A stretch of 64,000 nucleotides of DNA from Planctomycetes bacterium syqfu (GTDB lineage: Bacteria; Planctomycetota; Phycisphaerae; Phycisphaerales; Phycisphaeraceae), in contig CP087563.1 of assembly GCA_020974905.1 (NCBI GenBank), forward strand, positions 3,968,001 through 4,032,000, given 5' to 3'. The position numbers and the translations under genes were made by a program. Shown here one piece after another: positions 36,469 to 53,095 of this stretch. Under the pieces are notes generated by a model. It searched no databases. It was not told where the DNA came from and saw only the letters and a list, made by a program, of their open reading frames with translations. Position 1 is the stretch's first letter. The number at the start of each line of letters is the position of its first letter.

Positions 36469-36524
36469 TGGGAATCCTTTCAGGCGCAAGTCAGTTTGAT
36501 ACCCATCCCGTTTATCACATTGAC

Positions 36525-36588: not shown

Positions 36589-36693
36589 AGCGTCTGTGCT
36601 TTAAACAGGATTGTGATGACAGTTTACCGTGATGCGGGGTGATTCGCTTGAGTGTTTCAGACTGGAAATGGATTTGCAGCTACAATGCTTACC

Positions 36694-37530
36694 ATGAACA
36701 CGATCCAGATTGCAGATGTGAAGATTGGACCTGACGCGCCGTTGGCGATTATTGCTGGCCCCTGTGTCGCTGAATCGCTTGAGCTGTGTATGAAAGTCGG
36801 TGATGCGCTGCGGGCACGCTGTCGCGAGCTTGGCTTTGGGTACATCTTCAAAGCCAGTTTCGATAAAGCCAATCGTTCGAGTATCCACAGTTATCGTGGG
36901 CCGGGGTTGGAACAGGCGATGCAGTGGTTTGAGATTGTCAAAAGCGAACTTGGCGTGCCGGTGACGACGGATGTGCATGATGCATCGCAGACCAAGCCGG
37001 TGGGCGGTGTGTGTGACATTCTGCAGATTCCCGCGTTTCTCTGTCGTCAGACGGACTTGCTTCAGGCTGCTGCGGCAACGGGTAAGGCGGTGAGTGTGAA
37101 GAAGGGCCAATTCCTGTCGCCCGATGAGATGTCCAGCGTGGTGGAGAAGCTTGAGGAAAGTGGCGCGGACAAGGCAGGCATCATGCTCATGGAGCGTGGC
37201 ACGTTTTTCGGTTACCAGCGGTTGGTCAACGACTTCATCGGTGTGAATGACATGATGCAACACGGTTGGCCGGTGTGTTTTGATGTCACGCATTCGACAC
37301 AACTTCCCGGTGCCGGGGGCAGTGGCAGTGGTGGTGGACGGATCACCGGCGGACGCCCGGATTGTGCACCGATGCTTGCCAGGTGCGCGGTGGTGGCGGG
37401 TGTGCAGTGTTTGTTCATGGAAGTGCATCCCAACCCCAGCAAGGGTAAGAGTGATTCAGCAACGATGCTTTCCATCGAGCAGGCATGTGCGTTACTCGGC
37501 CAACTCAAGAAGCTGCGCGACGCGATGTGA
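36694..37530 (+). CDS. kdsA: 3-deoxy-8-phosphooctulonate (Kdo-8-P) synthase
   Basis: Condenses arabinose 5-phosphate with phosphoenolpyruvate to give Kdo 8-phosphate. The 278 residues contain IIAGPCVAES, YIFKASFDKANRSS, TDVHDASQ, IPAFLCRQTDLL, VKKGQFLSP and FDVTHSTQLPG. Cys in the AGPC block replaces the Asn of the metal-independent E. coli enzyme, so this should be the metal-dependent class, in which His and Glu/Asp residues also bind the metal. I use the ATG at 36694; ATGs at 36685 and 36652 are in frame and cannot be excluded. It works with kdsD and kdsC at 10.8-12.5 kb. Confidence 0.93.
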   Translation: MNTIQIADVKIGPDAPLAIIAGPCVAESLELCMKVGDALRARCRELGFGYIFKASFDKANRSSIHSYRGPGLEQAMQWFEIVKSELGVPVTTDVHDASQTKPVGGVCDILQIPAFLCRQTDLLQAAAATGKAVSVKKGQFLSPDEMSSVVEKLEESGADKAGIMLMERGTFFGYQRLVNDFIGVNDMMQHGWPVCFDVTHSTQLPGAGGSGSGGGRITGGRPDCAPMLARCAVVAGVQCLFMEVHPNPSKGKSDSATMLSIEQACALLGQLKKLRDAM

Positions 37531-37593
37531 GATTGGCGTTGGTATGCGTGTTCAAGGCATTTTTGCCACAGATACTCACAGATAAAGACAGGT

Positions 37594-37613
37594 ATCTCAA
37601 AGTGGTTTGAGAT
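37594..37613. repeat. Small perfect inverted repeat after kdsA
   Basis: ATCTCAAA and TTTGAGAT with a four-base loop form a hairpin 64 bases past the stop. No T run follows, so terminator function is doubtful. Confidence 0.45.
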
Positions 37614-37690
37614 GGCATACGCGTTTGTTCGTGATGTGTGGTGTTATCGCTGTTTTTTTCGACTCAAGCTTTTTCAGGGACGCTGTCATA

Positions 37691-37782
37691 TGTCATTCCC
37701 GCGCAGGCGGGAATCCAGTGGCATTCAGTTGACGCTTGCAAGTTCCACTGGACTCCCGTCTTCCGGGGGCGCGGGAGTGACG
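37691..37782. repeat. Inverted-repeat element (ATTCCCGCGCAGGCGGGAAT type), copy 2
   Basis: It matches the reverse complement of 7970-8054 over the full element, including the non-palindromic centre (CAGTGGCAT.CAG.TGACGCTTGCA), apart from a short insertion in one arm. It lies in the 37531-38002 convergent gap, which holds only repeats and terminators. Confidence 0.85.
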
Positions 37783-37869
37783 GTGAGTCTTTGGGAGAGT
37801 GTTAAGCGTATTGCGAGGAAGTGTCGTAGCTGTTTTTCGCAGAGAAGACGATTGATTTTTTTAAGATGC

Positions 37870-37900
37870 GACCCGTACCTCAGGAGAGGTACGGCTTTTG
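37870..37900 (-). repeat. Hairpin repeat, AAAGCCGT...ACGGGT family, copy 1
   Basis: On the minus strand AAAGCCGTACCTCTCCTGAG continues into GTACGGGTC. On the plus strand the stem is followed by CTTTTGTCTT, so it could also end kdsA transcription. Confidence 0.65.
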
Positions 37901-37928
37901 TCTTGTGATGCATTGAATCGGCGCAATG

Positions 37929-37965
37929 AAAAAACCGCGGTGCCCAAGTGTGACACCGCGGTTTT
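37929..37965. terminator. Bidirectional terminator beside the Fur-family gene
   Basis: A-run, ACCGCGGTG, loop, CACCGCGGT, then TTTTG. On the minus strand it lies about 40 bases past the fur-like stop and is followed by six T. Confidence 0.85.
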
Positions 37966-38002
37966 GTTGATTCGTTACATGTCAAGGCATGAGGTCGGTC
38001 AG

Positions 38003-38473
38003 TTAATTGACTTCGACGGCTTCACGGGTGTACTCGCCGATGAGTTCGATCTGCATGCGGCTGATGCGAAAGCCCAGTGTGTCTTCGATTTCCTTGAGTA
38101 CGTCCTGTGGGAGGTTGTCCAGGAGCTTCTGTCCCAGGGCTTCAGGAACGTCCGAGAGACTGCCTGTTGCACAGTCACGGATATGCAGGTGGTCATCGAC
38201 TGCTGCGTCGTAGCGGGCGGATGTGCCCCCGTCAGCAAGCTTTTGTGCCAAGCCGGACTTCACCAGGGCTTCGAGGGTGTTGTACACCGTTGCCAAACTG
38301 ATGCCAGACTCGGATCGCGAGAGCTTTTGGAAAAGCTGGTCGGCAGTGGGGTGGACTTTTTCACTGGCCAGCGCGGTGTAGACCGCAAAACGCTGGCGCG
38401 TGAACCGAAGGCTGTGAGCACAAAACAGTGAATGTACAGCAGCCTCGTCTAAATTGTGATTGTTTTGATGCAT
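38003..38473 (-). CDS. Fur-family transcriptional regulator
   Basis: Metal-responsive repressor of 156 residues. The N-terminal winged helix (RFTRQRFAVYTAL..., HPTADQLFQKL, ISLATVYNTLEALVKSGLA) is typical, followed by the DDHLHIRDCATGSLSDVP metal-site region. The C-terminal CxxC pairs of many Fur proteins are absent, and only one Cys remains in the central block. This is more like PerR/Irr-type or manganese-type members, but the subclass cannot be fixed. The ATG at 38473 is preferred to an in-frame TTG four codons upstream. A PerR-box-like palindrome overlaps its likely -10 region, suggesting autoregulation. Confidence 0.88.
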   Translation of the reverse strand: MHQNNHNLDEAAVHSLFCAHSLRFTRQRFAVYTALASEKVHPTADQLFQKLSRSESGISLATVYNTLEALVKSGLAQKLADGGTSARYDAAVDDHLHIRDCATGSLSDVPEALGQKLLDNLPQDVLKEIEDTLGFRISRMQIELIGEYTREAVEVN

Positions 38474-38538
38474 GGCGGGTTCCAAGGCTCGAAAACTATC
38501 GGTATGTCTGTCGCTCTAAAGGGATTGGTGTTTTAGAA

Positions 38539-38553
38539 CTATTATAATTATAG
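38539..38553. promoter_or_regulatory. Fur/PerR-box-like palindrome upstream of the Fur-family gene
   Basis: CTATTATAATTATAG is a 15-base palindrome with one mismatch, close to the PerR box. On the minus strand it includes TATAAT, a good -10 box, about 70 bases before the ATG. Apart from this site and the terminator at 38854, the 38474-38955 gap holds nothing I recognise. Confidence 0.5.
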
Positions 38554-38853
38554 ACACTCAAAGTAGCTGGGAAAAGTATTTTTTAGCAAATACCTGGTTT
38601 CGGTGATACAAAGCGTACCGGGTGATTCGGTGATTAACGGTGCTAATGCCGTGTTCGTAACAGCTTGGATGCCATCGACACACCGCGTTTGATTGCGTTG
38701 TGTGTTCATTTGCAGTTGAGTTTCACAGCTTCAAGTCACCCGCAGGAATCGACTGCGTTACTTCCACCGGCTTTGTTGCAATGGTGTGCTGTGGGTGTCT
38801 TGTTGATGTCAATGAGGGTTTCAAGCGACGTTATTGATCGTGTGCCAACGAAA

Positions 38854-38890
38854 AATCAGGATGAACCGTGCGAAGACGATTCATCCTGAT
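38854..38890 (-). terminator. Rho-independent terminator of the EF-hand gene
   Basis: ATCAGGATGAA and TTCATCCTGAT form an 11-base perfect stem, followed by five T on the minus strand. Confidence 0.82.
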
Positions 38891-38955
38891 GGTTGTGTCG
38901 ATGAGCTGTGAGAAAGTTGGGGTGATGCAGTTAGCTGTGCATCATGGTTTGGGTG

Positions 38956-39546
38956 TTACTCTTCGGTGGTCTGCTTTTTGTCTTTGCGAGCCTCAAGTGC
39001 AGCCTTGCGTTCTTCGGGGCTGATTTTGCCATCACCGTCGGTGTCTGCAGCCTTCTTGCGTTCTTCCATTTTGGCTTTGTGGGCATCGCGAGCGGCTTTG
39101 CGTTCTTCATCACTGATCTTGCCATCGCCATTGGTGTCGAACTTTTCGAGCAGCTTGGCTTTGTGCTGGGCGATCTTGGCTTCCATGGCTTTGCGTTCAT
39201 CATCGCTGAGCACGCCGTCACCGTTGGTGTCCGCCTGTTTTTCCATGCGCTTGCGCATGATCTCTTCGCGTTTGGCTTTGGCAGCGGCTTTTTCTTCGTC
39301 GCTGATGACGCCATCACCATTGGTGTCGATTTCCTTGAGTTTGTTTTCGCGCTTTTCCTTCATCTTGGCTTTGGCGGCTTCGCGTTCTTCCTTGCTGATC
39401 CTGCCATCACCATTGGTGTCGGCCATTTCCATCAGGCGTGCTTTACGGTCACCCTTGGCCGGCTTGTCCTCTGCCATGGCGTTGGCGGTGACGATCATGC
39501 CCATGGACAGGACGGTGAGTAACGAAATCTTGGTCAGGCGAGTCAT
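38956..39546 (-). CDS. Secreted EF-hand calcium-binding repeat protein
   Basis: Exported protein of 196 residues. A signal peptide (LLTVLSMGMIVTANAMA) ends near residue 25. Five canonical EF-hand loops follow at roughly 32-residue spacing: DTNGDGRISKEE, DTNGDGVISDEE, DTNGDGVLSDDE, DTNGDGKISDEE and DTDGDGKISPEE, each with the required Asp/Glu positions. The intervening helices are rich in Lys, Ala and Glu. It should bind up to five Ca ions. AAGGAA precedes the ATG. Such secreted EF-hand proteins are common in Planctomycetes; the role is unknown. Confidence 0.88.
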   Translation of the reverse strand: MTRLTKISLLTVLSMGMIVTANAMAEDKPAKGDRKARLMEMADTNGDGRISKEEREAAKAKMKEKRENKLKEIDTNGDGVISDEEKAAAKAKREEIMRKRMEKQADTNGDGVLSDDERKAMEAKIAQHKAKLLEKFDTNGDGKISDEERKAARDAHKAKMEERKKAADTDGDGKISPEERKAALEARKDKKQTTEE

Positions 39547-39663
39547 GTTTTATTTCCTTGTGTTGGAGGTGTGTTCGGTTTCCTGAAACTGAAAGCCAAA
39601 CGCACGGTGATAAGGCGTATTGCAATGGGTGCTGAAAAATTGTTGGCTGAGCATGGTGGGATA

Positions 39664-39692
39664 AAAAAAGGCGTCCCCGTTGTTGGGGACGC
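39664..39692 (-). terminator. Rho-independent terminator of the histone H1-like gene
   Basis: GGCGTCCCC and GGGGACGCC form a nine-base stem with a six-base loop, followed by seven T on the minus strand. Confidence 0.88.
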
Positions 39693-39825
39693 CTGGTGTG
39701 TTCTGAGGTGGCTCTCTGGGTTTCTTTGAGTTTATCTACCCTTTAAGATTCGGAGCGAGTAGGTAAACCCCTTGGAATTCCTGGGGCCGAGCGTTCATGC
39801 CATGCCCCACACTTACGTTGTGTTG

Positions 39826-40101
39826 TTATTTCTTCTTGGTAGCTTTTTTCGTTGCTTTTTTCTTGGCAACTTTCTTGGTGGCCTTCTTGGCCGGAGCCTT
39901 CTTGGCTACCTTCTTCTTGGCGACCTTCTTCTTCGCTACTTTCTTCTTAGCGACTTTCTTGGCCGGTGCCTTCTTGGCAACCTTCTTCACGACCTTCTTC
40001 TTGGCGACCTTCTTGGCTGGTGCCTTCTTGGCAACTTTCTTCACAGCCTTCTTCTTGGTGGCCTTCTTAGCGACCTTTTTCGATGCTTTTTTCTTAGCCA
40101 T
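39826..40101 (-). CDS. Lys/Ala-rich histone H1-like protein
   Basis: Basic protein of 91 residues made almost only of Lys, Ala, Val, Thr and Pro, in repeats of AKKVAKK and KKAPAKK. This composition matches the C-terminal domain of eukaryotic H1 and bacterial H1-like proteins (HC2, AlgP/AlgR3-type tails), which bind DNA non-specifically. There is no acidic residue in the whole protein. AAAGGAT lies upstream of the ATG, and a strong terminator follows, so it is a real single-gene unit. Repeat number probably varies between strains. A nucleoid-structuring role is inferred. Confidence 0.85.
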   Translation of the reverse strand: MAKKKASKKVAKKATKKKAVKKVAKKAPAKKVAKKKVVKKVAKKAPAKKVAKKKVAKKKVAKKKVAKKAPAKKATKKVAKKKATKKATKKK

Positions 40102-40301
40102 GGGCTTATCCTTTCAAGAACGCCCTCAGAACATTTAACCAATTAAACGCGGTATGCATTTTTAAGTCAATAAAAATTACCTACCTTAACGCGAATTCTT
40201 ATCGGCAATGAACGGTACTCAGCTTGAGGATTCGTTTAAATGTTCATCAAAGATGTTATCCGGCCATGCCTTTTTCTTTGATCAACAACAACACAAGAAC
40301 T

Positions 40302-42347
40302 TCAATCTTCCTCTTCCTGAGGCTTGTACTGGCCAACAATCTGTTGTTGAACGTGCGCGGGAACCGGTTCGTAATGGCTTAACTCCATCGTGTATGACCC
40401 CACACCACCGGTCATCGCTTTAACCGCGGATTGATAGTTGGTCAGTTCAGCTAACGGTGCTTGTGCGCGAATGCAAAGCATGTCACCTGGCAGCGTATCC
40501 GTACCGGTGATGCGCCCACGTTTACCCGATAAATCGCCTGCAATATCGCCCATGTTCACTTCGGGCACCGTGATTTCCAAGTCGACCAACGGCTCTAACA
40601 CAGCAGGTCCGGCCTTACTCACCGCATCAATGAATGCACGCTTGCCTGCAGTGACAAAGGCCACTTCCTTACTGTCAACGGGATGATGTTTGCCATCGTA
40701 AACACTGACCTTGATGTCCTGCATCGGATAGCCTGCGATGCAGCCCTGTTCCATCACCATGCGCACACCCTTTTCAATCGCAGGGATAAATGCAGCAGGA
40801 ATGGACCCGCCGAACGTTTCGTTGGCAAATTCAAAACCTTCACCACGTTCTTTGGGTTCGATGCGCAGATAAACTTCACCAAACTGACCTGCACCACCGG
40901 ATTGTTTCTTGTGTCGGTGATGACCTTCGGCTTTGCCTTGGATGGTTTCCTTGTAAGCGATCTTCGGGGGTTCGGTGTCCACTTCGACGTTAAAGCGTTC
41001 TTTCATCTTCTCCAGAACGATGCGCAGATGCAGTTGGCCAAGACCATACATGACGGTTTGACCGGTGGTGTTGCTGCGTTCAATGACCAGACACGGGTCT
41101 TCAGCGGTCATGGAGGAGATCGCTTTGGCCATCTTGGTTTCATCACCACGACTCTTGGCTTCGATGGCAAGACCGTCCATCGGTTTGGGGAAGCTCAAAG
41201 GTAAAAGATGAATGACTTCGTCTGCTGGATCGTCATGCAGCACACAGTCAAAGTCCAGATCATCGAGCTTGGCTAACGCGCAGATATCACCGGGGATGCC
41301 CGAGTCGACTTCTGCATGTTCCTTGCCATCAAGTTTATGTAAGTGTGCAACACGAATCGGCTTCTTGCTGTGACCGATAAGCAGTTGCGTGTCGTGATTG
41401 ATCGTGCCTTGATGAATTCGGAAGATGCCCATGCGTCCGACGAAGGGGTCGACGGTGACTTTAAAGACATGTGCGATGACATGCTTGGATGGATCAGGCT
41501 CAGCATGAAACTCCACTGCGTTTTCGTCTTCACCCTTGATAAACGGGCGGGGGTTGCCTTCCATGGGATTGGGGGCAAGCGAAACCAGAAAGTGCAGCAG
41601 GTCATCAATGCCCGCGCCGGTGGTGGCGGAGGTGAAGAGAATCGGGACCAGGTGTCCTTCGCGGAGTGCTTCTTCAAATGCGCCATGCATCTCTTCAGGT
41701 TTGACGTCGCCTTCTTCGAGATATTTTTCCATCAGCGATTCGTCGACTTCAACGATTTGATCGATGATGGCAGTGTGCGCTTCGTGGACATCGGAAAAAT
41801 CAGCCTTGCCATCGGCTTTGAGCAGCACGTCGATAACACCTTTACCGCCATCACAGGGCAGGTTGAATGGCAGACATTCGTTACCAAACGTCTCACGTAT
41901 CTGTTCAACGAGCATGGGCAGGTCGACATTGTCCTGATCGATCTTGTTGATGATGATGGCGCGACAGAGATTGCGTTCCTTGCCGAACTGCATCATGCGC
42001 CGGGTCATCATTTCAATGCCGTTGTGCGCGTTGATGACGACCGCCATGGTTTCGACTGCGGGCAGGACGCTCAAGGCATGCCCCATGAAGTCGGGGAAGC
42101 CGGGTGTGTCGATGAGATTGATGTGCTTGTCTTTGTAATCACAACTGACCACTGAGGACGAAAGGCTGTGCTGGTGGTGTTTTTCCAGCGGATCAAAGTC
42201 GCAAACCGTGTCGCCGCGTTCGATCGAACCCATGTTGCCGATCTTCCCGGTGTGCTTGAGGATGGCCTCGGTGAGCATGGTCTTGCCAGCCGAACCGTGG
42301 CCAACAAGCGCAACGTTGCGAATGTCCTCAGTGGTGTACTTAGGCAT
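40302..42347 (-). CDS. Elongation factor G-like translational GTPase
   Basis: GTPase of 681 residues with EF-G domain order. G1 is GHGSAGKT (16-23), G3 is DTPGFPDF (usual DTPGHVDF) and G4 is NKID; domain II, domain III and an EF-G domain IV/V (SGGAGQFGEVYLRIEP, YPMQDIKVSVYDG, RGRITGTD) follow. Replacement of the catalytic His in G3 by Phe and the short switch I (ERGDTVCDFDPLEKHHQHSL) point to the EF-G-2/FusA2-like branch rather than the main translocase. Function of that branch is poorly known. GGAGGT lies upstream of the ATG. The gene stands alone. Confidence 0.88.
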   Translation of the reverse strand: MPKYTTEDIRNVALVGHGSAGKTMLTEAILKHTGKIGNMGSIERGDTVCDFDPLEKHHQHSLSSSVVSCDYKDKHINLIDTPGFPDFMGHALSVLPAVETMAVVINAHNGIEMMTRRMMQFGKERNLCRAIIINKIDQDNVDLPMLVEQIRETFGNECLPFNLPCDGGKGVIDVLLKADGKADFSDVHEAHTAIIDQIVEVDESLMEKYLEEGDVKPEEMHGAFEEALREGHLVPILFTSATTGAGIDDLLHFLVSLAPNPMEGNPRPFIKGEDENAVEFHAEPDPSKHVIAHVFKVTVDPFVGRMGIFRIHQGTINHDTQLLIGHSKKPIRVAHLHKLDGKEHAEVDSGIPGDICALAKLDDLDFDCVLHDDPADEVIHLLPLSFPKPMDGLAIEAKSRGDETKMAKAISSMTAEDPCLVIERSNTTGQTVMYGLGQLHLRIVLEKMKERFNVEVDTEPPKIAYKETIQGKAEGHHRHKKQSGGAGQFGEVYLRIEPKERGEGFEFANETFGGSIPAAFIPAIEKGVRMVMEQGCIAGYPMQDIKVSVYDGKHHPVDSKEVAFVTAGKRAFIDAVSKAGPAVLEPLVDLEITVPEVNMGDIAGDLSGKRGRITGTDTLPGDMLCIRAQAPLAELTNYQSAVKAMTGGVGSYTMELSHYEPVPAHVQQQIVGQYKPQEEED

Positions 42348-42625
42348 GATGACGTGTACCTCCGTATGGATGTGGAAAAGATTTGAATGTAGTGCGTAAA
42401 AAGACTTGTGTGTCAGTAGTATAAGCTTGCGCAAATTCAACTGCACGTAAATCGGCGAATCGGAGAAGGGAAAAGGCCGTTTTTGTCACTTTGATCATGT
42501 GCGTCCCGGCATGATATTTCAAACACTTGCGTCAAGTTAATACGTGATGTTAGGCACAAGAGTTCTTGCGGTCTTGTGATTTGTGAAGCAATCTTTGTTG
42601 TTGTGAAAATCGGTTTGTGTTTTAC

Positions 42626-42706
42626 AAAGCCGTGACCCTCCCGGGTCACGGGTGTCGGGGTGAGATGACGGTTAATCGACCCGTGCCGCAGGAGCGACAC
42701 GGCTTT
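42626..42706. repeat. Inverted pair of AAAGCCGT...ACGGGT hairpins
   Basis: The first unit (42626-42654) reads AAAGCCGTGACCCTCCCGGG then TCACGGGT on the plus strand. The second (42678-42706) is the same element on the minus strand with stem changes. With 37870-37900 they give three copies whose stems vary in a paired way. The 42348-42902 gap contains this pair and otherwise nothing I recognise. Confidence 0.7.
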
Positions 42707-42902
42707 GAGCACACCCCCGACTGCCAGATCGACACCCATTTGGTGTTTGCAGGCCCCAACGTGGCAGGTGCGGCGGTGTCGCGACCATTTTGAGATTGCC
42801 GGCGATAATTTTTAACTGTCTGTTTTTACTTATCTTGCGTGTTGCAATGAAAAATATCTGAAACTGGCACTCTGGCGCCTGCCTTGCAACAAGACTGATG
42901 CC

Positions 42903-43394
42903 ATGCAAAACGTGCGTCTGGACAGGTCGACTCGTTTGAACGTGCTGCTGACAGAAGACCGGCCGCGCGGCGATGGGCATTGGTCACACCATTTGCCCCG
43001 CCTGCTTGAGCCGTTTGGCGTGTACACCCACGTCGCCCACAGCGGACGCCAAGCCATCGACTTTGCCGAACGCAACCCGATTCACGCGGCGGTGGTCGAC
43101 CTGAGCACCCCGATCGACACACCGGGTGTGCCTTCGACGGACGGGACCGACGGCATGTGGCTCATTGAGCTCTTGCGTCGCCTGCCCAACAAGCCGCCGT
43201 TTGTGGTGGTGACCAGCCCGATGGTGGATGACGCCCAGGTGTCCCGCGTTTTGCATCAGGCACTCAAAGCCGGCGCGTTCAGCGTGCTTAACCGACCGGC
43301 AAGCCTCAATGACGTGTTGACCGTCTTCCAGAGACTCGTCGACACCTGCTACGCCGGATCATGGCCTTCGCCATCGGCAGGCAACCACAGCTAA
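42903..43394 (+). CDS. Receiver-domain-like protein with a degenerate active site
   Basis: Protein of 163 residues with a CheY-like fold: VLLTED (acidic pair Glu18-Asp19), phospho-acceptor Asp66 in AAVVDLSTP, Thr104 in VVVTSP. The invariant Lys is replaced by Asn130 (VLNRP). An insert of about 12 residues follows Asp66. There is no output domain. With the Lys missing, phosphorylation signalling is doubtful, so it may act as a protein-interaction module. It lies 124 bases upstream of groES in the same direction, so co-transcription is possible but not shown. Confidence 0.75.
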   Translation: MQNVRLDRSTRLNVLLTEDRPRGDGHWSHHLPRLLEPFGVYTHVAHSGRQAIDFAERNPIHAAVVDLSTPIDTPGVPSTDGTDGMWLIELLRRLPNKPPFVVVTSPMVDDAQVSRVLHQALKAGAFSVLNRPASLNDVLTVFQRLVDTCYAGSWPSPSAGNHS

Positions 43395-43518
43395 CGACTG
43401 AGTCGGTTCGCGTGAATCGACTTTGAAATTTGGATAAGAACCCGACCACAACGGTCAGTTGAATTTTGGAAACTGTAAAGAACTTAAAAGCGTTCAACGT
43501 ATCAAAGGAGATTGAAGC

Positions 43519-43806
43519 ATGAACGTGCGTCCACTCGGCGACAAAATCATCGTCAAACGTGTCGAAGCCCAGGAAAAAACCGCATCCGGTATCTACCTGC
43601 CCGAATCTGCCAAGGAAAAGCCCCAGGAAGCCAAGATCATCGCCCTCGGTGATGGCAAAGTCCTCGACTCCGGCGAGCGTGCATCCTTCCAGGTCAAGAA
43701 GGGCGACACCGTCCTGCTGAGCAAATGGGGTGGCACCGAACTGAAGATCGACGGTGAAGAATATCTCATCCTCACCGAAGACGACATTCTCGCCGTCGTT
43801 GGCTAA
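43519..43806 (+). CDS. groS: Co-chaperonin GroES
   Basis: Ten-kilodalton lid subunit of the GroEL chaperonin, 95 residues. The N-terminal VRPLGDKIIVKRVEAQEKTASGIYLP contains the mobile loop, and the rest (GDTVLLSKWGGTELKIDGEEYLILTEDDILAVV) is typical. AAGGAG lies upstream of the ATG. The operon with groEL has an unusually long spacer of 155 bases with simple repeats. No CIRCE (HrcA) element is present upstream. Confidence 0.97.
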   Translation: MNVRPLGDKIIVKRVEAQEKTASGIYLPESAKEKPQEAKIIALGDGKVLDSGERASFQVKKGDTVLLSKWGGTELKIDGEEYLILTEDDILAVVG

Positions 43807-43841
43807 CCCCCGGAACCCCGGAACCCCCGGAACCCCCGGAA
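43807..43841 (+). repeat. Short tandem repeat (CCCCCGGAA)n in the groES-groEL spacer
   Basis: About four copies of a nine-base unit begin at the groES stop codon. A related CCCCCGGAAG doublet occurs at 51513-51530. Confidence 0.8.
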
Positions 43842-43911
43842 GTTTCCCCCGTGTGAAATGACCGTATTTGAAAGTGATAGGGAAGGGATGTTGCATCGCT
43901 TTTTGCCTTGC

Positions 43912-43944
43912 ACCCTAAACCCTAAAACCCAAACCCTAAACCCC
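43912..43944 (+). repeat. Telomere-like (CCCTAAA)n tract in the groES-groEL spacer
   Basis: ACCCTAAACCCTAAAACCCA continues with another CCCTAAACCCC. It ends 17 bases before the groEL start. Confidence 0.85.
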
Positions 43945-43961
43945 AATGTTGGAGTCCCAAA

Positions 43962-45587
<1,626 letters not shown>

Positions 45588-45621
45588 TCCCACCGTCCGC
45601 AATGTGAATATCACAAAATCA

Positions 45622-45657
45622 AACAACCCTCGTTCATTGAGCGAGGGTTGTTTTTTT
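45622..45657 (+). terminator. Rho-independent terminator of groES-groEL
   Basis: AACAACCCTCG and CGAGGGTTGTT form a perfect stem, with seven T following. Confidence 0.92.
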
Positions 45658-45678
45658 GCGCGCTTGGAAAATACGTAT

Positions 45679-45715
45679 GCACAACACCCCTGGGGTTAAA
45701 ACCCCAGGGCTTTAG
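45679..45715 (-). repeat. Palindromic repeat, GGGCTTTAAT family, copy 4
   Basis: GCACAACACCCCTGGGGTTA then AACCCCAGGGCTTTAG. Stem GGGGTT/AACCCC with the family's GTTGTGC and CTTTA flanks. It is in the convergent groEL-trpB gap 45588-45918. Confidence 0.88.
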
Positions 45716-45831
45716 TTCCAGTTCGAGCTTCAAAAAGAATGTCGCATCACACAATGACGCGGTGTCGTTCTTGGAAAAATGTGACACATACACATGAATG
45801 TTCACATGTGTTGCCAACAGCGATACGCATG

Positions 45832-45872
45832 CACATTAAAGCCCCGGGGTTTTAACCCCGGGGACGTTGTGC
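45832..45872 (+). repeat. Palindromic repeat, GGGCTTTAAT family, copy 5
   Basis: CACATTAAAGCCCCGGGG, TTTTAA, CCCCGGGG, then ACGTTGTGC. Opposite orientation to copy 4 in the same gap. Confidence 0.88.
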
Positions 45873-45918
45873 GTTCGATCTGTCATTGTGCGTTCGACAT
45901 GTCATTTACCGTACAAGA

Positions 45919-47280
45919 TCACTCCACATGCGCAACGGGCAATTCCTCCAGCGCCTTGTCGATGTTCTCCTGCGGGAGATCGTAATCTTCCAACTCACCG
46001 GCCAGGTACTTGTCATAACTGTAAAGATCAAAGTGACCGTGGCCTGAGAAGTTGAAGACGATACATTTTTCTTCGCCGGTCTCTTTGCAGCGGAGTGCTT
46101 CATCGATGGCTGCACGGATCGCGTGATTGGTTTCCGGTGCAGGGCAGATGCCTTCGGTGCGAGCGAACATGACGCCAGCTTCGAAGGCCGCATTCTGGTG
46201 ATAGGAACGCGCTTCCATCGCGCCGAGTTTGTGCAATAGGGATAACGTCGGAGCCATGCCATGGTAGCGGAGTCCGCCTGCGTGGATACCTGATGGGACG
46301 AAGGAGTGGCCGAGCGTGAACATGCATGCCATGGGCGCCATGCCGACGCTGTCACCGAAGTCGTATGCGTATTTGCCACGCGTGAGTGTCGGGCATGCGG
46401 TGGGTTCGGAAGCGATGAGCTTGGGGCCGCGCCCGTCGAGGACATCTTTGACATACGGGAAAATCAGGCCTGCGAGGTTCGAGCCCCCGCCTGCACAGCC
46501 GATGAGCACATCGACATTTTCTTCCGCCAAAGCCAGTTGCTTTTTGAGTTCCAGGCCGATGATGGTCTGATGCAGACACACGTGGTTGAGCACGCTGCCC
46601 AGCGCGTAGTTGGTGTCATCATGCGATGCAGCATCTTCCACGGCTTCGCTGATGGCAATGCCCAACGAGCCGGTGGTCTCCGGATCTTTTGCGAGAATCT
46701 CGCGTCCAACCTTGGTGTCTTGCGACGGTGATGCGACACAGCTTGCGTTCCAAAGCTGCATGAGGCTGCGACGGTAAGGCTTCTGGTGATAGCTGACCTT
46801 GACCATATACACCTTGCACTCAATGCCGAACAGGTCACAGGCAAAGGCCAGGGACGAACCCCATTGACCAGCACCGGTTTCGGTAGCAATGCGACGAATC
46901 CCCGCCTGCTTGTTGTAGTACGCCTGGGCGACCGCCGTGTTGGGCTTATGCGATCCCGCAGGACTCACGCCTTCGTTCTTGTAATAGATTCGGGCGGGTG
47001 TCTTGAGATGTTTTTCAAGATTCACCGCACGGACCAACGGCGAGGGACGCCAGATCGCCAACTTCTCGCGGACTTCGTCGGGAATCTCCACCCAACGTTC
47101 CGTGCTGACTTCCTGGGCGATGAGCGTGTCCGGGAAAATCGGCTTCATATCATCGGGCGTTAACGGCTTACCCGTTGCCGGATGACAGTGCGGCGGTACC
47201 AGTTCCGGTAAGTCGGCAGCAATGTTGTACCAGGCGTGCGGGATGTCATTGGATGACAGAATAAAACGGTGATCGTGCAT
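45919..47280 (-). CDS. trpB: Tryptophan synthase beta-like protein, TrpB2 class
   Basis: PLP enzyme of 453 residues that condenses indole with serine (or phosphoserine) to tryptophan. The length and the long N-terminal extension ([20 protein letters not shown]) define the TrpB2 branch. The PLP Lys lies in GSHKPNTA, the phosphate-binding loop is GCAGGGSN, and ETGAGQWG is present. No trpA is nearby, and TrpB2 proteins often act without the alpha subunit. AGGATC lies upstream of the ATG. It is divergent from the channel gene, 92 bases apart. Confidence 0.93.
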
Positions 47281-47372
47281 GACGTTGATCCTGAAAAAAA
47301 TAACTGTGGACCTATCAATCTTACGACAAAATTGTCCCTACTGCATTGGTCATTGCATGGTATGATATCCGC

Positions 47373-48401
47373 GTGTCCGGTATCGCTGCATCCAATACGC
47401 GTAATAAAATCATCTTCAGCATCATGTTGCTGATCGCGATGTTTGTCATCGGTGTCTTCGGTTTTACCATGCTTTCTGATACGCGAACCTACGGCGAGGC
47501 GATCTGGATCACCGTCAACATTCTCTCCACCGTCGGTTCGATCAATCTGGAACTCGAACCCAACGAGCAAATCTGGGCCTCCATTCTCATGGGGCTGGGC
47601 GTGCTGACCGTGTTCTATGTCGGCGGTAACCTCGTGGCCTTTATCGTTGACGGTGAATTGCGACATATGTTCGGGAGGCGTCACTTGGAAAAACAAATCA
47701 ATCATCTGAAAAATCATGTCATCGTCTGCGGTTTTGGTCGCATGGGTGAAGCGCTCTGCGATCGACTTCACGAACAGGGCCATCACTTCGTTGTCATCGA
47801 TCCCGATGGTGATACCAAGCAGCGTGTCGATGCCAAGGGATACCTGATCATCCAGGGCGATGCCATGGTCGAACAGACGTTAAACGAAGCGCAGGTCCAT
47901 CGTGCGGTCGGCTTGGCCACCTGTCTGCACAGTGATGCGGATAACGTGTTCGTCACCTTGACTGCCCGTGAACTCAACGATGATCTGATCATCATCTCCC
48001 GCTCGGAAAACAAGGAAACCGAAACCAAACTCAAACGTGCAGGCGTCAGCCGTGTGATCTGTACGCCGGAACACTCGGCCAACAAGGCCATGCAGATGCT
48101 CTTACATCCTGCTGTCGAAGAACTCGTGGAACTTGCAGTCAGTGGCGATGACCTGGAAGTCACCAAAGTCCAACTCGTGCAATTACCCAAGGCCTGTGGC
48201 AAGACACTGCGTCAACTGGCGCTACCCAATGTCTCGGGCCATATTGTCGTGGCCATGGTCAAACCCGATGGTTCACGCACGTTCAATCCACCACCGGATA
48301 CCGCACTGAATGCCGGTGATGAGTTGATCGTCATCGGGCCGATCGGTGGGACGACCAAACTCTTTGACGCCTTTGGTGCTGAGGGCGTGCATCTGGTGTA
48401 A
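47373..48401 (+). CDS. Two-TM potassium-channel-like protein with RCK/TrkA domains
   Basis: Membrane protein of about 343 residues: helix 1 (KIIFSIMLLIAMFVIGVFGF), pore helix and filter, helix 2 (WASILMGLGVLTVFYVGGNLVAFI), then a cytosolic TrkA-N domain with nucleotide-binding GFGRMG and VVIDPDGD, and a TrkA-C domain (about 265-343). It resembles MthK-type ligand-gated channels. The filter reads STVGSINLE, so the Tyr-Gly of canonical TVGYG is replaced by Ser-Ile, and selectivity may differ. Start is uncertain: the GTG at 47373 leaves a short N-terminus; a TTG at 47346 is in frame. No clear ribosome-binding site. Confidence 0.85.
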   Translation: MSGIAASNTRNKIIFSIMLLIAMFVIGVFGFTMLSDTRTYGEAIWITVNILSTVGSINLELEPNEQIWASILMGLGVLTVFYVGGNLVAFIVDGELRHMFGRRHLEKQINHLKNHVIVCGFGRMGEALCDRLHEQGHHFVVIDPDGDTKQRVDAKGYLIIQGDAMVEQTLNEAQVHRAVGLATCLHSDADNVFVTLTARELNDDLIIISRSENKETETKLKRAGVSRVICTPEHSANKAMQMLLHPAVEELVELAVSGDDLEVTKVQLVQLPKACGKTLRQLALPNVSGHIVVAMVKPDGSRTFNPPPDTALNAGDELIVIGPIGGTTKLFDAFGAEGVHLV

Positions 48402-48493
48402 GATACAGATGGCCGGTGAGATGGGATACGGCTGATAGCAAATTCCATATCACATAATTTCGACGCGAGTCTCTATACGGAGAGCGCCTCAAT

Positions 48494-49021
48494 ATGTCAT
48501 CACTAGCAACCTGGTCACTGCTTTGCTTTCTCATCGCGCTGGTGCTCTTTGCCATCGAGGTTTTCGTCCCCTCAGGCGGACTCCTGGGCGTGCTGGCGAT
48601 TATTGCGGCCATTGCCGGGATCATCTTTCTCTTTCAGATCAACACCACACTAGGACTCGTTGGTTCAATTGTCTGTGTCGCAGCCATTCCAGTCTTGATC
48701 ATGTCCGCGATGAAGTTCTGGCCCAATACGCCATTCGGACGCATGCTCATTATCAAAGATCCCAAAGACAGTGATGATATGGGTGATGCAGGTGAACAGG
48801 AAGAGGTCGAAGAAAATCTCGAACCCGACCCCCAGCCCAAGCCACAGTATCTGAACATGACCGGCATCGCTCAAACGGACTTGCGCCCCGTGGGTGTGTG
48901 TCGTTTGGGGGATCGCAAAGAACCCTGCATCTCCGTCGGTGGCATGATCGACGCAGGCACCCCCATCAAAGTCATCGCCATCACCGGCGGCAACATCAAA
49001 GTCCAGGCGATCGACGAATAA
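48494..49021 (+). CDS. NfeD-like membrane protein
   Basis: Protein of 175 residues with three hydrophobic segments: about 5-25 (LLCFLIALVLFAIEVFVPSGG), 28-47 and 53-72. A Glu-rich linker (about 95-115) precedes a small C-terminal OB-fold-like domain (MTGIAQTDLRPVGVCRLGDRKEPCISVGGMIDAGTPIKVIAITGGNIKVQ). This is the NfeD architecture, usually linked to stomatin/flotillin or membrane Ser proteases and membrane microdomains. No stomatin gene is adjacent here. It follows the channel gene by 92 bases. Confidence 0.85.
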   Translation: MSSLATWSLLCFLIALVLFAIEVFVPSGGLLGVLAIIAAIAGIIFLFQINTTLGLVGSIVCVAAIPVLIMSAMKFWPNTPFGRMLIIKDPKDSDDMGDAGEQEEVEENLEPDPQPKPQYLNMTGIAQTDLRPVGVCRLGDRKEPCISVGGMIDAGTPIKVIAITGGNIKVQAIDE

Positions 49022-49063
49022 ACAATCCGGTTCACGCTGTGAAGTGATCTCGCAATAACGCAA

Positions 49064-49284
49064 GACACAAATACCTGCCCAGTTCCATCCATGCCCACCA
49101 AGCTCGCAGAACATTAAAGCCCGCGGAACTTTAGTCCCCGAGGCGTTGTGCCACCGCATCACACCGTTGTTATTCGATATCCCCCATCACGTAACGCACA
49201 AACACCTGCGCGGTTCCATCCACGCCAACCAACGCGCAAAGGACATTAAAGCCCGCGGGACTTTAGTCCCCGGGGCCATGTGCG
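49064..49284 (+). repeat. Tandem duplication carrying two GGGCTTTAAT-family repeats (copies 6 and 7)
   Basis: Units at about 49064-49152 and 49195-49284 match through TTCCATCCA.GCC.ACC, ACATTAAAGCCCGCGG, ACTTTAGTCCCCG and GTGC, about 131 bases apart. The palindrome cores are 49111-49151 and 49243-49283. The second overlaps the 3' end of the following minus-strand gene. Confidence 0.85.
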
Positions 49285-50252
49285 ATTGTCAACACCACGC
49301 TGCCGACTTTATGCCCGCCGTCCACATACCGATGCGCTTCTGCGGTCTCTTCCAGCGGGTAACACCGATCAATCACCGCGCAGTATGTCCCCGCTTCGAT
49401 CATCGCTTTGACTTCCTGCAAATGATCACGACTGTCCGCGGACACCGTACACACCATCCGACGTTGGGTCAGCAGATTCACGAGTCCCATCTGAAATAAA
49501 TGTCGGATCGCAAACGCGGTGAGCAGATAGCGCCCGTTGTGAGCAAGGACGCGTTTGGACTTGCTGAATGTGGTCTTACCCACCGTGTCGAACACGATGT
49601 CATACATCTGCGAGCTTTGCGTGAAGTCCGCCTGGGTGTAGTCGATGACGTGGTCCGCGCCCAGGGATTGGACGAGTTGCATGTTCTTCGTGCTGCACAC
49701 GCCGGTCACCGTTGCGCCAAGGTTTTTTGCAATCTGGATCGCCGCAACACCCACCGCGCCGGACGCCCCGTAAACCAACACGTGATCGCCTTGGGTGATC
49801 TTGCCTGTCTTGAGAAAATGCATGGCAGTCAGGGAACCAAACGGGATCGCTGCTGCATCGTTAAACGACAGATTCTCGGGCATCGTGGTGATCGTGCTCG
49901 TTGCAGGCACGCAGATGAATTGGGCATTGGTCCCCATTTTCATGCCGGTGATCCCAAAGACGCGCTGGCCGATGGTGAAGCTGTCCACGTCTTTGCCCAA
50001 CGCATCAATCTCACCTGCAAACGCCACGCCGAGGATGGGCTGTTTGGGTTTGAAGAATCCGAACATGGGACGGGCCAGCAAGGCCATGGTCCACGGGATA
50101 TTTTCAAAACTCCGCATTTTTACATCACCGGAGGTGACCGTCGATGCATGAATCTTCACCCGGACCTGGTTGGGCGTTGGATCAGGTGTGGGAATATCTT
50201 CCAGATGCAAAACATCCGGGCTGCCGAAGCGCGTATGGGTGATGGCTTTCAT
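49263..50252 (-). CDS. Quinone oxidoreductase-like MDR-family dehydrogenase
   Basis: NAD(P)-dependent reductase of the medium-chain superfamily, 329 residues. The N-terminal GroES-like domain (PDVLHLEDIPTPDPTPNQVRVKIHAS, GVAFAGEIDALG) lacks the zinc ligands of alcohol dehydrogenases. The Rossmann motif is VYGASGAVGVAAIQIAKNLGA, followed by GADHVIDYT and FDTVGK. Substrate unknown, possibly an enone or quinone. The last residues (IAHGPGD) and the stop codon are encoded inside a palindromic repeat, so the native C-terminus may have been changed by repeat insertion. Confidence 0.88.
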   Translation of the reverse strand: MKAITHTRFGSPDVLHLEDIPTPDPTPNQVRVKIHASTVTSGDVKMRSFENIPWTMALLARPMFGFFKPKQPILGVAFAGEIDALGKDVDSFTIGQRVFGITGMKMGTNAQFICVPATSTITTMPENLSFNDAAAIPFGSLTAMHFLKTGKITQGDHVLVYGASGAVGVAAIQIAKNLGATVTGVCSTKNMQLVQSLGADHVIDYTQADFTQSSQMYDIVFDTVGKTTFSKSKRVLAHNGRYLLTAFAIRHLFQMGLVNLLTQRRMVCTVSADSRDHLQEVKAMIEAGTYCAVIDRCYPLEETAEAHRYVDGGHKVGSVVLTIAHGPGD

Positions 50253-50339
50253 GAGGGTTCCGCCATGTGATTGGTAATCTCAACAAGCATCATACCAATT
50301 CCCGTTGGCGTAACGCATTCAAAGACTCGGCAATCTGAA

Positions 50340-50771
50340 TCACAATCTGTTCACACCAATGCCAAAGAGTCGGCGGACTTGATGGGATGTCAGCACGCGG
50401 TATTCCCACAATGCGACTGCAAAGAGTATCACACCCAGGATTGAAAGCGTCCATGCAGGTGCGTGTCCCATTTCCTGTCCAAAAATTTTCAGTGTTGCAG
50501 GTTGCGTCAAGAATAATGCCACCACGGAGACGATCAGCAGGGTGATCATCGCAAACCAGATCAACACCAGGGCGCATGTCCGCCAACCGCGTTTGAGCTT
50601 GAGTAACCCGGGTCCGACAAAGACACCCAACGCGCCGAAATTGATGTTGATATGACCTGAGATCAGGTGCCCGATCATCTCAAGAATTGAGAGTATGCCA
50701 CAGATGATAAACAGCAATGCGACGACTTTCAGTGAAATGGGCAAGGTGGATGGTGGTTCGTATTCCTGCAT
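50340..50771 (-). CDS. Hypothetical membrane protein
   Basis: Protein of 143 residues with three to four predicted helices: about 12-35 (ISLKVVALLFIICGILSILEMI), 45-57, 68-90 (LVLIWFAMITLLIVSVVALFL) and 107-125. It has no conserved motif I recognise. Start is at an ATG without a strong ribosome-binding site. It could be co-transcribed with the membrane protein that starts at 51251 upstream (82-base gap). Confidence 0.6.
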   Translation of the reverse strand: MQEYEPPSTLPISLKVVALLFIICGILSILEMIGHLISGHININFGALGVFVGPGLLKLKRGWRTCALVLIWFAMITLLIVSVVALFLTQPATLKIFGQEMGHAPAWTLSILGVILFAVALWEYRVLTSHQVRRLFGIGVNRL

Positions 50772-50852
50772 CGGTTATCCCTCCGGCAAATTGGATCAGA
50801 TCATACTCGCAGCAGCCGCGAGATACCATTGCCATGGTTTGATATTCTCCAA

Positions 50853-51251
50853 TCACAATCCCAACCATTCGATGAGCAGGGGCGAATACATCTCGCGTCC
50901 CCATACGTTGTACCATGCTGCCCAACTGTACATCATGATCGTTGCAAAAAACACATAGGCTGCAATCCGTCGTGCATAGAGTGTCACCAGTCCGATGGCA
51001 GCAAGCTGTGCGAGTTTGCCAAGGTTCGGCCCGACGAAGGGACCGGTGAGATGTGCAACAATACGGATGGCCGGATGAACTTCCATTTCCACGCCTTCAG
51101 TATGCATGAATCGCATGGTGGTGATCATATCCGCGGTAGCTGCGAGGAATAGGATCGTCAACCACCAACGATACCGCAGGTAATAGCCCCGGTAATTCTC
51201 GGTCAAGCGGTCGGTGATCGGTTTGCAGAAATCTATGAACGCTGTCGTCAT
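50853..51251 (-). CDS. Hypothetical membrane protein
   Basis: Protein of 132 residues with helices near 28-43 (WWLTILFLAATADMITTMRFM), 77-95 and 97-115. The D-M-I-T-T-M segment followed by E-x-HP and a G-P-x-x-G-x-x-L-x-K-L-A-Q block resembles small DUF5658-like membrane proteins, but I cannot confirm the family. It lies just left of the large inverted repeat region. Confidence 0.6.
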   Translation of the reverse strand: MTTAFIDFCKPITDRLTENYRGYYLRYRWWLTILFLAATADMITTMRFMHTEGVEMEVHPAIRIVAHLTGPFVGPNLGKLAQLAAIGLVTLYARRIAAYVFFATIMMYSWAAWYNVWGREMYSPLLIEWLGL

Positions 51252-51355
51252 CGTGTTAAGTCTCTGGATGTATTTTACAGCATTACAAATGAATCACGAT
51301 ATTTCTTTAGCATTTGGTCGTCATTGGGGGGGTGAAATCCAATGATTTTGTTTCA

Positions 51356-51505
51356 TGGCCAGGGAGCTTCGCCCTCCGGACCCCCTTACGAGATCGGCGT
51401 GTTATGGCAAGTGATGTTGCTGTGTTGCATCTGAATGATTGAAGACCAACTTGCATTGGGGTTCCACCCCAAACCCCGCCAACGGGCAGCCGTTGGATCG
51501 CTGCC
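51356..51505 (+). repeat. Structured repeat element, left copy of an inverted pair
   Basis: The first 71 bases (51356-51426) are an exact reverse complement of 51748-51818. A diverged 30-base section follows, then a conserved distal part with hairpins GGGG-TTCCA-CCCC (51458-51470) and CCAACGG-GCAG-CCGTTGG (51479-51496), joined by CCCCAAACCCCGCC. The 51252-51883 gap contains no gene I can support. Confidence 0.8.
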
Positions 51506-51667
51506 CCCGGAAGCCCCCGGAATTGGGGTCGATCAAGAGTCTCAGAACATCAGTTCACAACACGTTAATCGGACGATGAACATACCAAGCGTGCAGATGA
51601 TCAGACAGATATCCGATTAACCAGTTCAATTCACGAACACCAGTATCCAAGGCCCAGCCCTTCCTGG

Positions 51668-51818
51668 GGGACGTGATCCAGCGGCGGAACGCTGGCGGGG
51701 TTTGGGGCAGAGCCCCATCTCATTTCTGTCTTCATTCATTTGAATGTAACACAGCAACATCACTTGCCATAACACGCCGATCTCGTAAGGGGGTCCGGAG
51801 GGCGAAGCTCCCTGGCCA
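51668..51818 (-). repeat. Structured repeat element, right copy of the inverted pair
   Basis: Same element on the minus strand: 71 identical bases (51748-51818), then hairpins GGGG-CTCTG-CCCC (51704-51716) and CCAGCG-TTCCGC-CGCTGG (51678-51695). Compared with the left copy, the second stem changes by complementary pairs, suggesting selection for RNA or DNA structure. Confidence 0.8.
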
Positions 51819-51883
51819 CGAAAAAACACCGGACAGATAAACCATCCGGTGTTACTCATTGCGATTCGTGATGTCGTGCAAGC

Positions 51884-53095
51884 TTACGCGTAGCTGGAGC
51901 TTTGAACTTCGCCACGGTCTTTGCGGGCTTGGGTGCGCGCCTTGGACAGTTCTTCAACCACGCCACTTTTGCGTAACTCCGTCAGAGGGCAGGCTGGCAA
52001 CTTGTGACTCTTACGCCAATCGGCAAGCATCGGGCGGACATCGGTTTCGTAAGCATCCTTGAGAAGGCGCTCTGCACCGGTAATGTCGCCGGACTTCTGC
52101 GCGATGGCTAATGCCTTGCGGTCCACGAGATGGGCTTTGGCAAATAGCTTCTGTGCTTCATCTACAGTCTGCACCATCGCTTCGAGTTTGGGTTTTAAGT
52201 TGTGACTTTGATCGACCATGTAGGCAAGCTTGGGGTCCTTGCCGGTGTCGAAGGTGTATTGAGCGATCTGATCAAAAATGCGAAACGCTGCATAGGGATC
52301 AATCGAACCGAGTGTCAGATCGTCATCTGCATATTTGCGGTCATTAAAGTGGAATCCGCCGAGCATGCCTTCGGAGAGCAGCAGCGCAACGATGTGTTCG
52401 ATGTTGCAGCCGGGCAGATGGTGACCGGTATCCACCAACACCTTGGCACGTTTGCCTGCCTTTTGACAGAACAGGTAACTCATGCCCCAGTCTGCGATGT
52501 CGGTGTGATAGAAGGAGGGTTCGAAGGGCTTGTACTCAATGAGCAACGTCGAGCCACGCCAGGACTTTTCCATTTCGTCATTGATTTTTTTGAAGGCTTT
52601 TTCGAGGTCTTTCTTGCGACGGTAGATGCTGTCCTGCCCCGGGTAGTTCGTGCCGTCCGCCAGCCACATGGACAGATGCTTGGAACCGACCGCTTTACCG
52701 ATGGCAATGGAGTCCATGGTGTGCTTAAGGGCTGCACGACGTGCCTTGGGATCGGGTGAGCAAAAGGAGCCGAGTTTGTAATCCTGATCCTGAAACACAT
52801 TGGGATTGATCGAACCAATCTTCACGCCATGTTTCTTGGCAAGCTTGGCGGTGTTGCGCGGATCCTCACCTGCAACAAAGTCCCAAAGCACATGCACCGC
52901 AACCGTCGGGCAGGCACCAGTGAGTTGATTCACCAAACCGGCATCGTGGAGTTTCTCATCGAGTGTCGAAGCAGCAGCGCCCTGGAAGAACTTACCAAAA
53001 CGCGTGCCAGTGTCGGCAAAGCCCCAACTGGGCAGTTCGATGGCAAATCCGTCGAGTGCCTTAAACAGATTTCGCATGGTTTGGTCTTTTGCCAT
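51884..53095 (-). CDS. L-rhamnose isomerase-type sugar isomerase (RhaI-like)
   Basis: TIM-barrel, metal-dependent sugar isomerase of 403 residues. Visible blocks are ELPSWGFADTGTRFGKF, SMWLADGTNYPGQDS, LIEYKPFEPSFYHTDIADWG (metal Glu), VDTGHHLPGCNIEHI (metal Asp/His) and GGFHFNDRKYADDDLTLGSIDPY. These match the RhaI group (L-rhamnose isomerase, Pseudomonas stutzeri-type), which also accepts other aldoses. AGGAG lies 13 bases before the ATG. No rhamnose kinase or aldolase is adjacent, so pathway context is lacking. Confidence 0.87.
   Translation of the reverse strand: MAKDQTMRNLFKALDGFAIELPSWGFADTGTRFGKFFQGAAASTLDEKLHDAGLVNQLTGACPTVAVHVLWDFVAGEDPRNTAKLAKKHGVKIGSINPNVFQDQDYKLGSFCSPDPKARRAALKHTMDSIAIGKAVGSKHLSMWLADGTNYPGQDSIYRRKKDLEKAFKKINDEMEKSWRGSTLLIEYKPFEPSFYHTDIADWGMSYLFCQKAGKRAKVLVDTGHHLPGCNIEHIVALLLSEGMLGGFHFNDRKYADDDLTLGSIDPYAAFRIFDQIAQYTFDTGKDPKLAYMVDQSHNLKPKLEAMVQTVDEAQKLFAKAHLVDRKALAIAQKSGDITGAERLLKDAYETDVRPMLADWRKSHKLPACPLTELRKSGVVEELSKARTQARKDRGEVQSSSYA

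Follow-up and report, generated by a model that had tools for sequence, protein, structure and literature searches.

The inverted repeat at positions 51356-51818 of the window (the whole 64,000-nucleotide stretch of DNA analysed) belongs to a family of gene-less elements that lie between genes and are seen in one genus only. The explanation we favour, and consider reasonably likely, is a non-autonomous, MITE-like inverted-dimer mobile element made of two related but distinct arms of ~158 bp and a centre of ~140 bp, a one-genus family that was moved in trans and whose copies are now mostly static and exchange sequence with each other. In what follows G000 is the source genome, a single contig of 7,376,598 bases (7.38 Mb), G001 its sister species, and G003 and G002 a third and a fourth species. 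L numbers denote individual copies or loci, the window copy being L059.

Structure of the window copy

The window copy is an imperfect palindrome. An inverted-repeat search placed its arms at 51348-51508 and 51666-51826, 161 nt each, 84% complementary and 157 nt apart. The first-pass annotation had described an inverted pair with 71 identical bases and covarying hairpins, and both were recovered: positions 51356-51426 match 51748-51818 exactly in inverted orientation with no outward extension, a match for which arithmetic rules out a chance origin at such a distance, and each arm carries two hairpins around CCCCAAACCCCGCC, the one that follows it being CCAACGG/CCGTTGG on the left (A arm) and CCAGCG/CGCTGG on the right (B arm). 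The features are as follows, with the basis for each in brackets.

51351-51358, plus strand: T-rich end of the left tip, TTTCATGG (base counts by column, 46 ends of 23 copies)
51356-51513, plus strand: left or A arm, tip-to-centre reading; the initial 71 bases are the exact inverse of the B arm (nhmmer, 164.2 bits)
51457-51471, plus strand: hairpin 1 of the A arm, TGGGGT-TCC-ACCCCA (model R1 match, pair counts)
51479-51496, plus strand: hairpin 2 of the A arm, CCAACG-GGCAGC-CGTTGG (model R1 match, pair counts)
51485-51505, plus strand: alternative helix, A arm only, GGCAGC (51485-51490) with GCTGCC (51500-51505) (pair counts, 21 A arms)
51504-51522, plus strand: CCCCCGGAAGCCCCCGGAA at the inner end of the A arm; in other copies the unit stands alone or is followed by an altered second one (sequence comparison of copies)
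51514-51660, no strand assigned: centre, with the inverted pair AACACGTTAATCGGA / TCCGATTAACCAGTT at 51559-51573 and 51612-51626 (inverted-repeat search)
51661-51818, minus strand: right or B arm, tip-to-centre reading (nhmmer, 167.1 bits)
51678-51695, minus strand: hairpin 2 of the B arm, CCAGCG-TTCCGC-CGCTGG (pair counts, model R1 match)
51703-51717, minus strand: hairpin 1 of the B arm, TGGGGC-TCT-GCCCCA (pair counts, model R1 match)
51821-51853, minus strand: likely intrinsic terminator of the minus-strand frame 51884-53095, its T-run abutting the element from outside (sequence, flank folds by eye)

The inverted pair within the centre means that the palindrome continues weakly toward the middle. 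Ahead of CCAGGG, base counts over 46 ends (23 copies) show T as the most frequent base from -8 to -5, with C leading at -4 and G at -1. The long exact identity between arms is peculiar to this copy, with the outer variable part at 0.85 as against 0.58-0.72 in the other 11 testable G000 copies.

The window copy sits between two minus-strand frames, one of 132 aa at 50853-51251 and one of 403 aa at 51884-53095, and no frame of at least 90 aa overlaps it. When folds of the flanks were judged by eye, a terminator-like hairpin was also found before the copies at the same site in G001 (L126) and G003 (L133). Such hairpins of neighbouring genes were seen to the right of the window copy, L126, L133, L058 and L065 and to the left of L057 and L123, and are absent near most of the 46 ends, so insertion beside terminators is not general. 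The element itself was rejected as a terminator, since at both ends the T-run precedes the hairpins on the inward strand, which is the wrong way round.

Copy number and anatomy of the family

Searching the G000 contig with the A arm gave 29 DNA matches, of which 28 are both arms of 14 inverted pairs and the last is a match of 21 bases. The 13 copies beyond the one in the window bear on the first-pass annotation, which had named the lack of further copies as evidence against its reading. The tip CCAGGGAGCTTCGCC occurs 25 times in G000 with up to one mismatch, every time at the ends of the 14 copies; with two mismatches there are 12 more occurrences, 2 of them in copies, and the reversed control pattern occurs 7 times in all. 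Neither the arm search nor the tip search found single dispersed arms in G000, where arm matches come paired.

Every complete pair that was read consists of one A and one B arm (22/22; 12 in G000, 8 in G001 and 2 in G003). Hairpin 2 is CCAACG/CGTTGG in the A arm, or CCAACA/TGTTGG in most G003 copies, and CCAGCG/CGCTGG in the B arm. Measured tip to tip over 23 copies, the element is 440-461 bp long in G000 and G001; G003 copies are longer, at 495-500 bp, and the deletion-bearing G000 copies L053 and L063 measure 418 bp and 320 bp. By simple frame calling, in which frames sharing more than 60 bases with the element were set aside and tabulated separately, all 14 G000 copies lie between genes, in tandem, convergent and divergent settings with no common orientation. 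The longest frame overlapping any of them encodes 187 aa, and the longest frames vary in strand and place among copies.

Within an arm type, mean identity in G000 is 0.91-0.95 for the tip and the inner part and 0.72-0.76 for the outer variable part. The two arms of one element are no more alike than arms taken across elements (permutation p 0.40 for 12 G000 copies and 0.14 for 8 G001 copies), and on this test we rejected arm-to-arm copying inside each element as a general rule, with the window copy and the G001 copies L128 and L123 as exceptions. No direct repeat of at least 5 bp at a common offset, as a target-site duplication would leave, was found around 23 copies, though old copies could have lost theirs. 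Nor did the single-contig G000 hold an autonomous element with matching tips, as all 25 tips with up to one mismatch belong to the 14 short copies; in G001 and G003 such an element could lie past the ends of contigs.

Conserved hairpins

In an alignment of 41 distinct inner arms, standard pairing holds in 99.2% of cells across the 12 pairs that make up the two hairpins, and 7 of these pairs are doubly changed. None of 500 shuffles reached the observed pairing percentage, number of doubly changed pairs or covariation score, figures to be read with the caveat that related sequences can exceed shuffles without any structure. When partner columns were slid by 1-3 positions, pairing fell to 25-51%. 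The number of further pair types (9, against a mean of 10.7 in shuffles) was equalled or exceeded by all 500 shuffles and gives no support for structure. Three of the 7 doubly changed pairs come from the L144 row of G002 alone, and without it 4 of the 12 pairs remain so. The difference between A and B arms is probably one event seen repeatedly, and hairpin 1 types may have been swapped as blocks, so the number of independent events is small. The stems are nonetheless kept with compensatory changes in congeners, and the loss of stems in relatives that the first-pass annotation had named as counter-evidence was not observed.

The alignment used for these counts (A1) omits the L143 arm, which is cut by a contig end, and the L053 A arm, in which hairpin 2 is deleted, and identical rows were collapsed. 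Its letter pattern for hairpin 2 left two variable pairs free to vary independently and would drop other letters; 59 arms picked by profile and length without that pattern show the same hairpins on alignment. The B arms were also aligned separately (A3), and that alignment was left out of the pair counts.

The A arm can also form an alternative helix, GGCAGC with GCTGCC, which is paired in 96% of cells over 21 A arms and includes one compensatory pair, found in 4 G003 rows. Over all 41 arms it is paired in 67% of cells and is absent from B arms as a conserved feature, and its covariation score over all arms (0.212) is below that of one slid control (0.226). Its doubly changed pairs in A arms number 1 against 0.6 in shuffles, with 304 of 500 shuffles as high; for the whole structure in the A-only set of 21 arms the values are 3 and 2.2, with 183 of 500 as high. 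The computed fold of the window A arm uses this helix. Because there is no linker between them, we think it more likely that the helix competes with hairpin 2 than that the two form a full, tight pseudoknot. In folding energy the window A arm does not surpass its shuffles (z of 0.01 and -1.08 for RNA on the two strands and -0.86 for DNA), and so it is covariation, not stability, that argues for structure.

These hairpins could belong to a host structured non-coding RNA family, duplicated to many loci and held there by selection. The compensatory changes in both hairpins, the helix confined to A arms with its one compensatory pair, the conservation of the hairpins relative to linkers and the element sites common to G000 and G001 are all as such a family would have them. 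Against it stand the lack of a common orientation of neighbouring frames, the folding energy just given, the organisation as an inverted dimer and the empty sites in congeners described below, and we regard this origin as unlikely. The first-pass annotation had proposed either a structured RNA or a mobile non-autonomous element. The mobile half of that proposal is supported by the inverted pairs, the tips, the intergenic positions and the empty sites; the conserved pairing does not decide for the RNA half, as it fits RNA and single-stranded or cruciform DNA equally well.

The same annotation had noted a resemblance to HEARO, a GC-rich, multi-stem RNA present in several copies. Unlike HEARO, the element is an inverted dimer with no internal gene, and at the gathering score no Rfam family matched anywhere in the window, the element included; across 17 element loci the sole match was a tRNA, away from the element. 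A permissive Rfam scan of the element region (E<=10) gave only one unrelated match of 15.8 bits. We therefore rejected HEARO or any other Rfam family.

Distribution outside the source genome

A DNA search of 61 genomes gave matches in 7, three of which (G018, G032 and G036) show only unrelated matches of 24-30 bases. These were rejected as relatives, being a CCCCCGGAAG repeat or, at L146, apparent coding DNA. Under stricter filters the covariance model of the inner arm (R1) found 26 matches in G000, 24 in G001, 13 in G003, 1 in G002 and 1 marginal match in G070 among 51 genomes of the taxonomic family. The G002 arm (L144) had been found by DNA similarity and then entered the training of R1, so its match is by construction. 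In G070 the match scores 28.9 bits, with E 0.0086 per genome and 51 genomes searched; much of hairpin 1 is missing from it, and we took it as chance. The G002 locus (L144:1900-2509) holds a lone diverged arm whose hairpin reads CAAGG/CCTTG in place of TGGGG/CCCCA. This arm lies in GC-rich sequence close to the end of a contig and may be a distant offshoot of the family.

In the GTDB contig collection, which may omit the source genome, the exact tip pattern occurs in 31 stretches, all of them in Phycisphaeraceae bacterium NAT22 and Phycisphaerales bacterium UBA7800. Two exact patterns had no match in viral contigs, and plasmid and phage records gave no match at 1e-5. A literature search covering titles and the openings of abstracts found no published description of the family, which is no proof of absence.

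Two other repeats were met along the way. Tandem decamers of the CCCCCGGAAG type stand directly after stop codons at L228, L230, L232, L234 and L236 in G000 and at L145 (G018), L147 (G032) and L148 (G036). The CCCCCGGAAG-type pattern has 19 matches in G000, 7 of them inside elements, and the reversed control has none. Of six places read outside elements, four begin 3-12 nt past the stop of a frame of at least 80 codons, L236 abuts a TAA and L233 misfits; in other genera all three places read begin 8-9 nt past such a stop. A further dispersed repeat of ~100-130 bp, at L060:3885-4015, is present in several G001 element loci, and its frames include TPAQAGVQ, which we take to be typical of a widespread intergenic repeat.

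Element sites across species

At all 14 G000 sites at least one orthologous flank adjoins an element in G001, at 78-93% identity. Two of the 14 sites, those of the window copy and L065, were seen occupied in G003; the site of L058 is empty there, with 83 bases between the flanking matches as opposed to 661 in G000, and the other 11 sites had no match among the G003 element flanks. The L058 site is empty in G002 as well (405 bases against 873), as is the site of the G003 copy L134 (121 bases against 673). Some G003 elements have flanks that match no G000 copy. The empty sites are too diverged for the exact insertion junction to be read. No fresh insertion was seen among the genomes compared, and all cases of presence and absence are between fairly distant congeners, which points to mobility as historical; on these comparisons the element probably moved in the past and its sites are old.

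Some copies coincide with rearranged chromosome segments. In G001 (L126) and G003 (L133), the sequence adjoining the element on its left side maps to 34724-36783 of the window on the minus strand, which implies that ~16.6 kb (window 34724-51356) is inverted in G000 relative to both. One breakpoint of this inversion is at the element and the other is without one. At 2 of the 7 sites that could be compared (L060/L125 and L063/L130), the order of A and B arms between the flanks in G001 is the opposite of that in G000. The G001 copy L122 has the left flank of L055 on one side and the right flank of L066 on the other.

The G000 copies lie at 0.70-2.02 and 4.02-5.45 Mb, with one at 6.66 Mb, which raises the question of whether the element is a DNA site for chromosome organisation (segregation or supercoiling) and not a selfish element. 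The 14 copies are gathered in two clusters that face each other across the chromosome (second-order resultant 0.61, simulation p 0.0043; first-order p 0.92), by a test picked after the positions were seen. The cluster axis is at 1.22 and 4.91 Mb, and one cluster holds the minimum of cumulative GC skew (~4.3-4.6 Mb, computed from 40 samples of 20 kb) and two dnaA-like genes. These genes, at C1:4622784 and C1:4874763 of G000, are both over the Bac_DnaA_C cut-off, with frames of 502 and 507 aa that are 0.25 Mb apart. However, replication-linked inversions could give the same clustering, and both the element-free L058 site in G003 and the G003 elements in surroundings of their own speak against a chromosomal role, which we judge very unlikely.

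Exchange of sequence between copies

We compared elements at seven G000/G001 site pairs; in two of them the G000 copy carries a deletion, and in one the G001 copy is truncated by a contig edge. In a multiple alignment, orthologous elements had a mean identity of 0.807 against 0.787 for wrong pairings (permutation p 0.076), and without the deleted copy L063 the means were 0.8052 and 0.8050 (p 0.52). Pairwise alignment gave 0.837 against 0.822 for the seven pairs (p 0.065) and 0.834 against 0.833 without L063 (p 0.45). The G000 copies among themselves have a mean identity of 0.82 and a maximum of 0.90 (0.85 and 0.91 by pairwise alignment). Identity of the 250-base flanks at four site pairs was 0.80-0.88 for 7 of 8 flanks, the eighth, left of the window copy, being rearranged and unaligned.

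In a tree most copies cluster by species, with the exception of the G000 copy L061, which falls among G001 copies. The deleted copy L063 joins its ortholog L130 (support 0.94), and the G003 copy at the window-copy site (L133) pairs with the other complete G003 copy. No near-fixed difference between G000 and G001 copies was found, which counts against exchange. Since orthologs other than L063 are no more alike than wrong pairings, the comparison suggests that copies swap patches of sequence with each other and track species, not site. G001 and G003 are fragmented draft assemblies in which many copies sit at contig ends, so chimeric assembly could mimic exchange, and this is a serious caveat.

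A bolder reading is a self-homogenising element, in which a folded copy, of single-stranded DNA or derived from RNA, would leave one locus and overwrite the resident copies at fixed sites without entering new ones; the family would then evolve as a single population at sites that stay occupied. The A arm, bistable between hairpin 2 and the alternative helix, and the B arm, not bistable, would do different jobs, and the A/B asymmetry would keep the palindrome imperfect enough to survive. We consider this quite unlikely.

Comparison with known systems

The element is like bacterial MITEs in being short, gene-less, intergenic and multicopy, with terminal inverted repeats and with presence or absence at orthologous sites. 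It is unlike them in that no target-site duplication and no autonomous partner with the same ends were seen, and in that it consists mostly of arms with several conserved hairpins and a constant A/B asymmetry.

REPINs, inverted doublets of REP sequences described by Bertels and Rainey (PMC3116915), are likewise intergenic and predicted to form hairpins in single-stranded DNA. Compared with that account, the element has an arm of ~158 bp where a REP is short, only 14 copies, no dispersed single units and no arm at any of 18 Y1 loci. The terminal inverted repeat (TIR) families of TIRtrons and TIRYTs, described in PMC3733652, resemble it in having long terminal inverted repeats that are also found as dimers at a distance from transposase genes; unlike in those families, no Y1 gene with element arms is found in G000 or at 12 Y1 loci of three congeners. 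Since two MITE features (target duplication and autonomous partner) and two of three REPIN features were not found, we treat the element as a variant that is a member of neither group.

These likenesses lead to a version of the favoured reading with a named class of enzyme, in which a host Y1 transposase (HUH, RAYT/TIRYT) would move a REPIN- or TIR-type element and recognise its hairpin arms as single-stranded DNA. The inverted pairs of hairpins between genes correspond to the REPIN description in PMC3116915. Tyrosine transposases flanked by long TIRs that form repeat families, many of them dimers or clusters, are on record in PMC3733652. Candidate enzymes exist, with 6 Y1_Tnp matches in G000, 5 of them over the cut-off, and 12 in three congeners. 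However, an arm profile matched none of these 18 loci at E<=1 (~1.5 kb on each side where the contig allows), the 6 own loci carry palindromes unlike the element, and arms of 158 bp in place of 20-40 bp, with no dispersed single arms in G000, are foreign to such systems. Overall we see a transposase of this class as an unlikely mover. Shared 14-mers at the Y1 loci are isolated, with one or two each in L280, L281 and L283, that of L283 being the CCCCCGGAAG repeat. The six G000 matches (L186-L191) each have palindromes of their own, and these loci are likely to be separate REP/TIR systems within one genome.

Proposed history and implications

Returning to the non-autonomous inverted dimer as the favoured reading, we propose that an ancestor spread when moved in trans by an enzyme that would have recognised the folded arms as single-stranded or cruciform DNA. 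Recognition of folded arms would account for the preservation of tips and hairpins alongside drifting linkers. Present copies would mostly stay put and swap patches by recombination between copies, and such recombination may homogenise the copies within a species, flip some of them and join chromosome segments.

Many small bacterial repeats can be traced to a transposase or an RNA class, and here this was not so despite a single-contig genome. With its fixed sites, A/B heterodimers, hairpins and copies that track species, the family offers a compact system for looking at the persistence and homogenisation of non-autonomous repeats in bacteria, and its copies serve as markers of chromosome rearrangement in a genus of planctomycetes that has been little studied.
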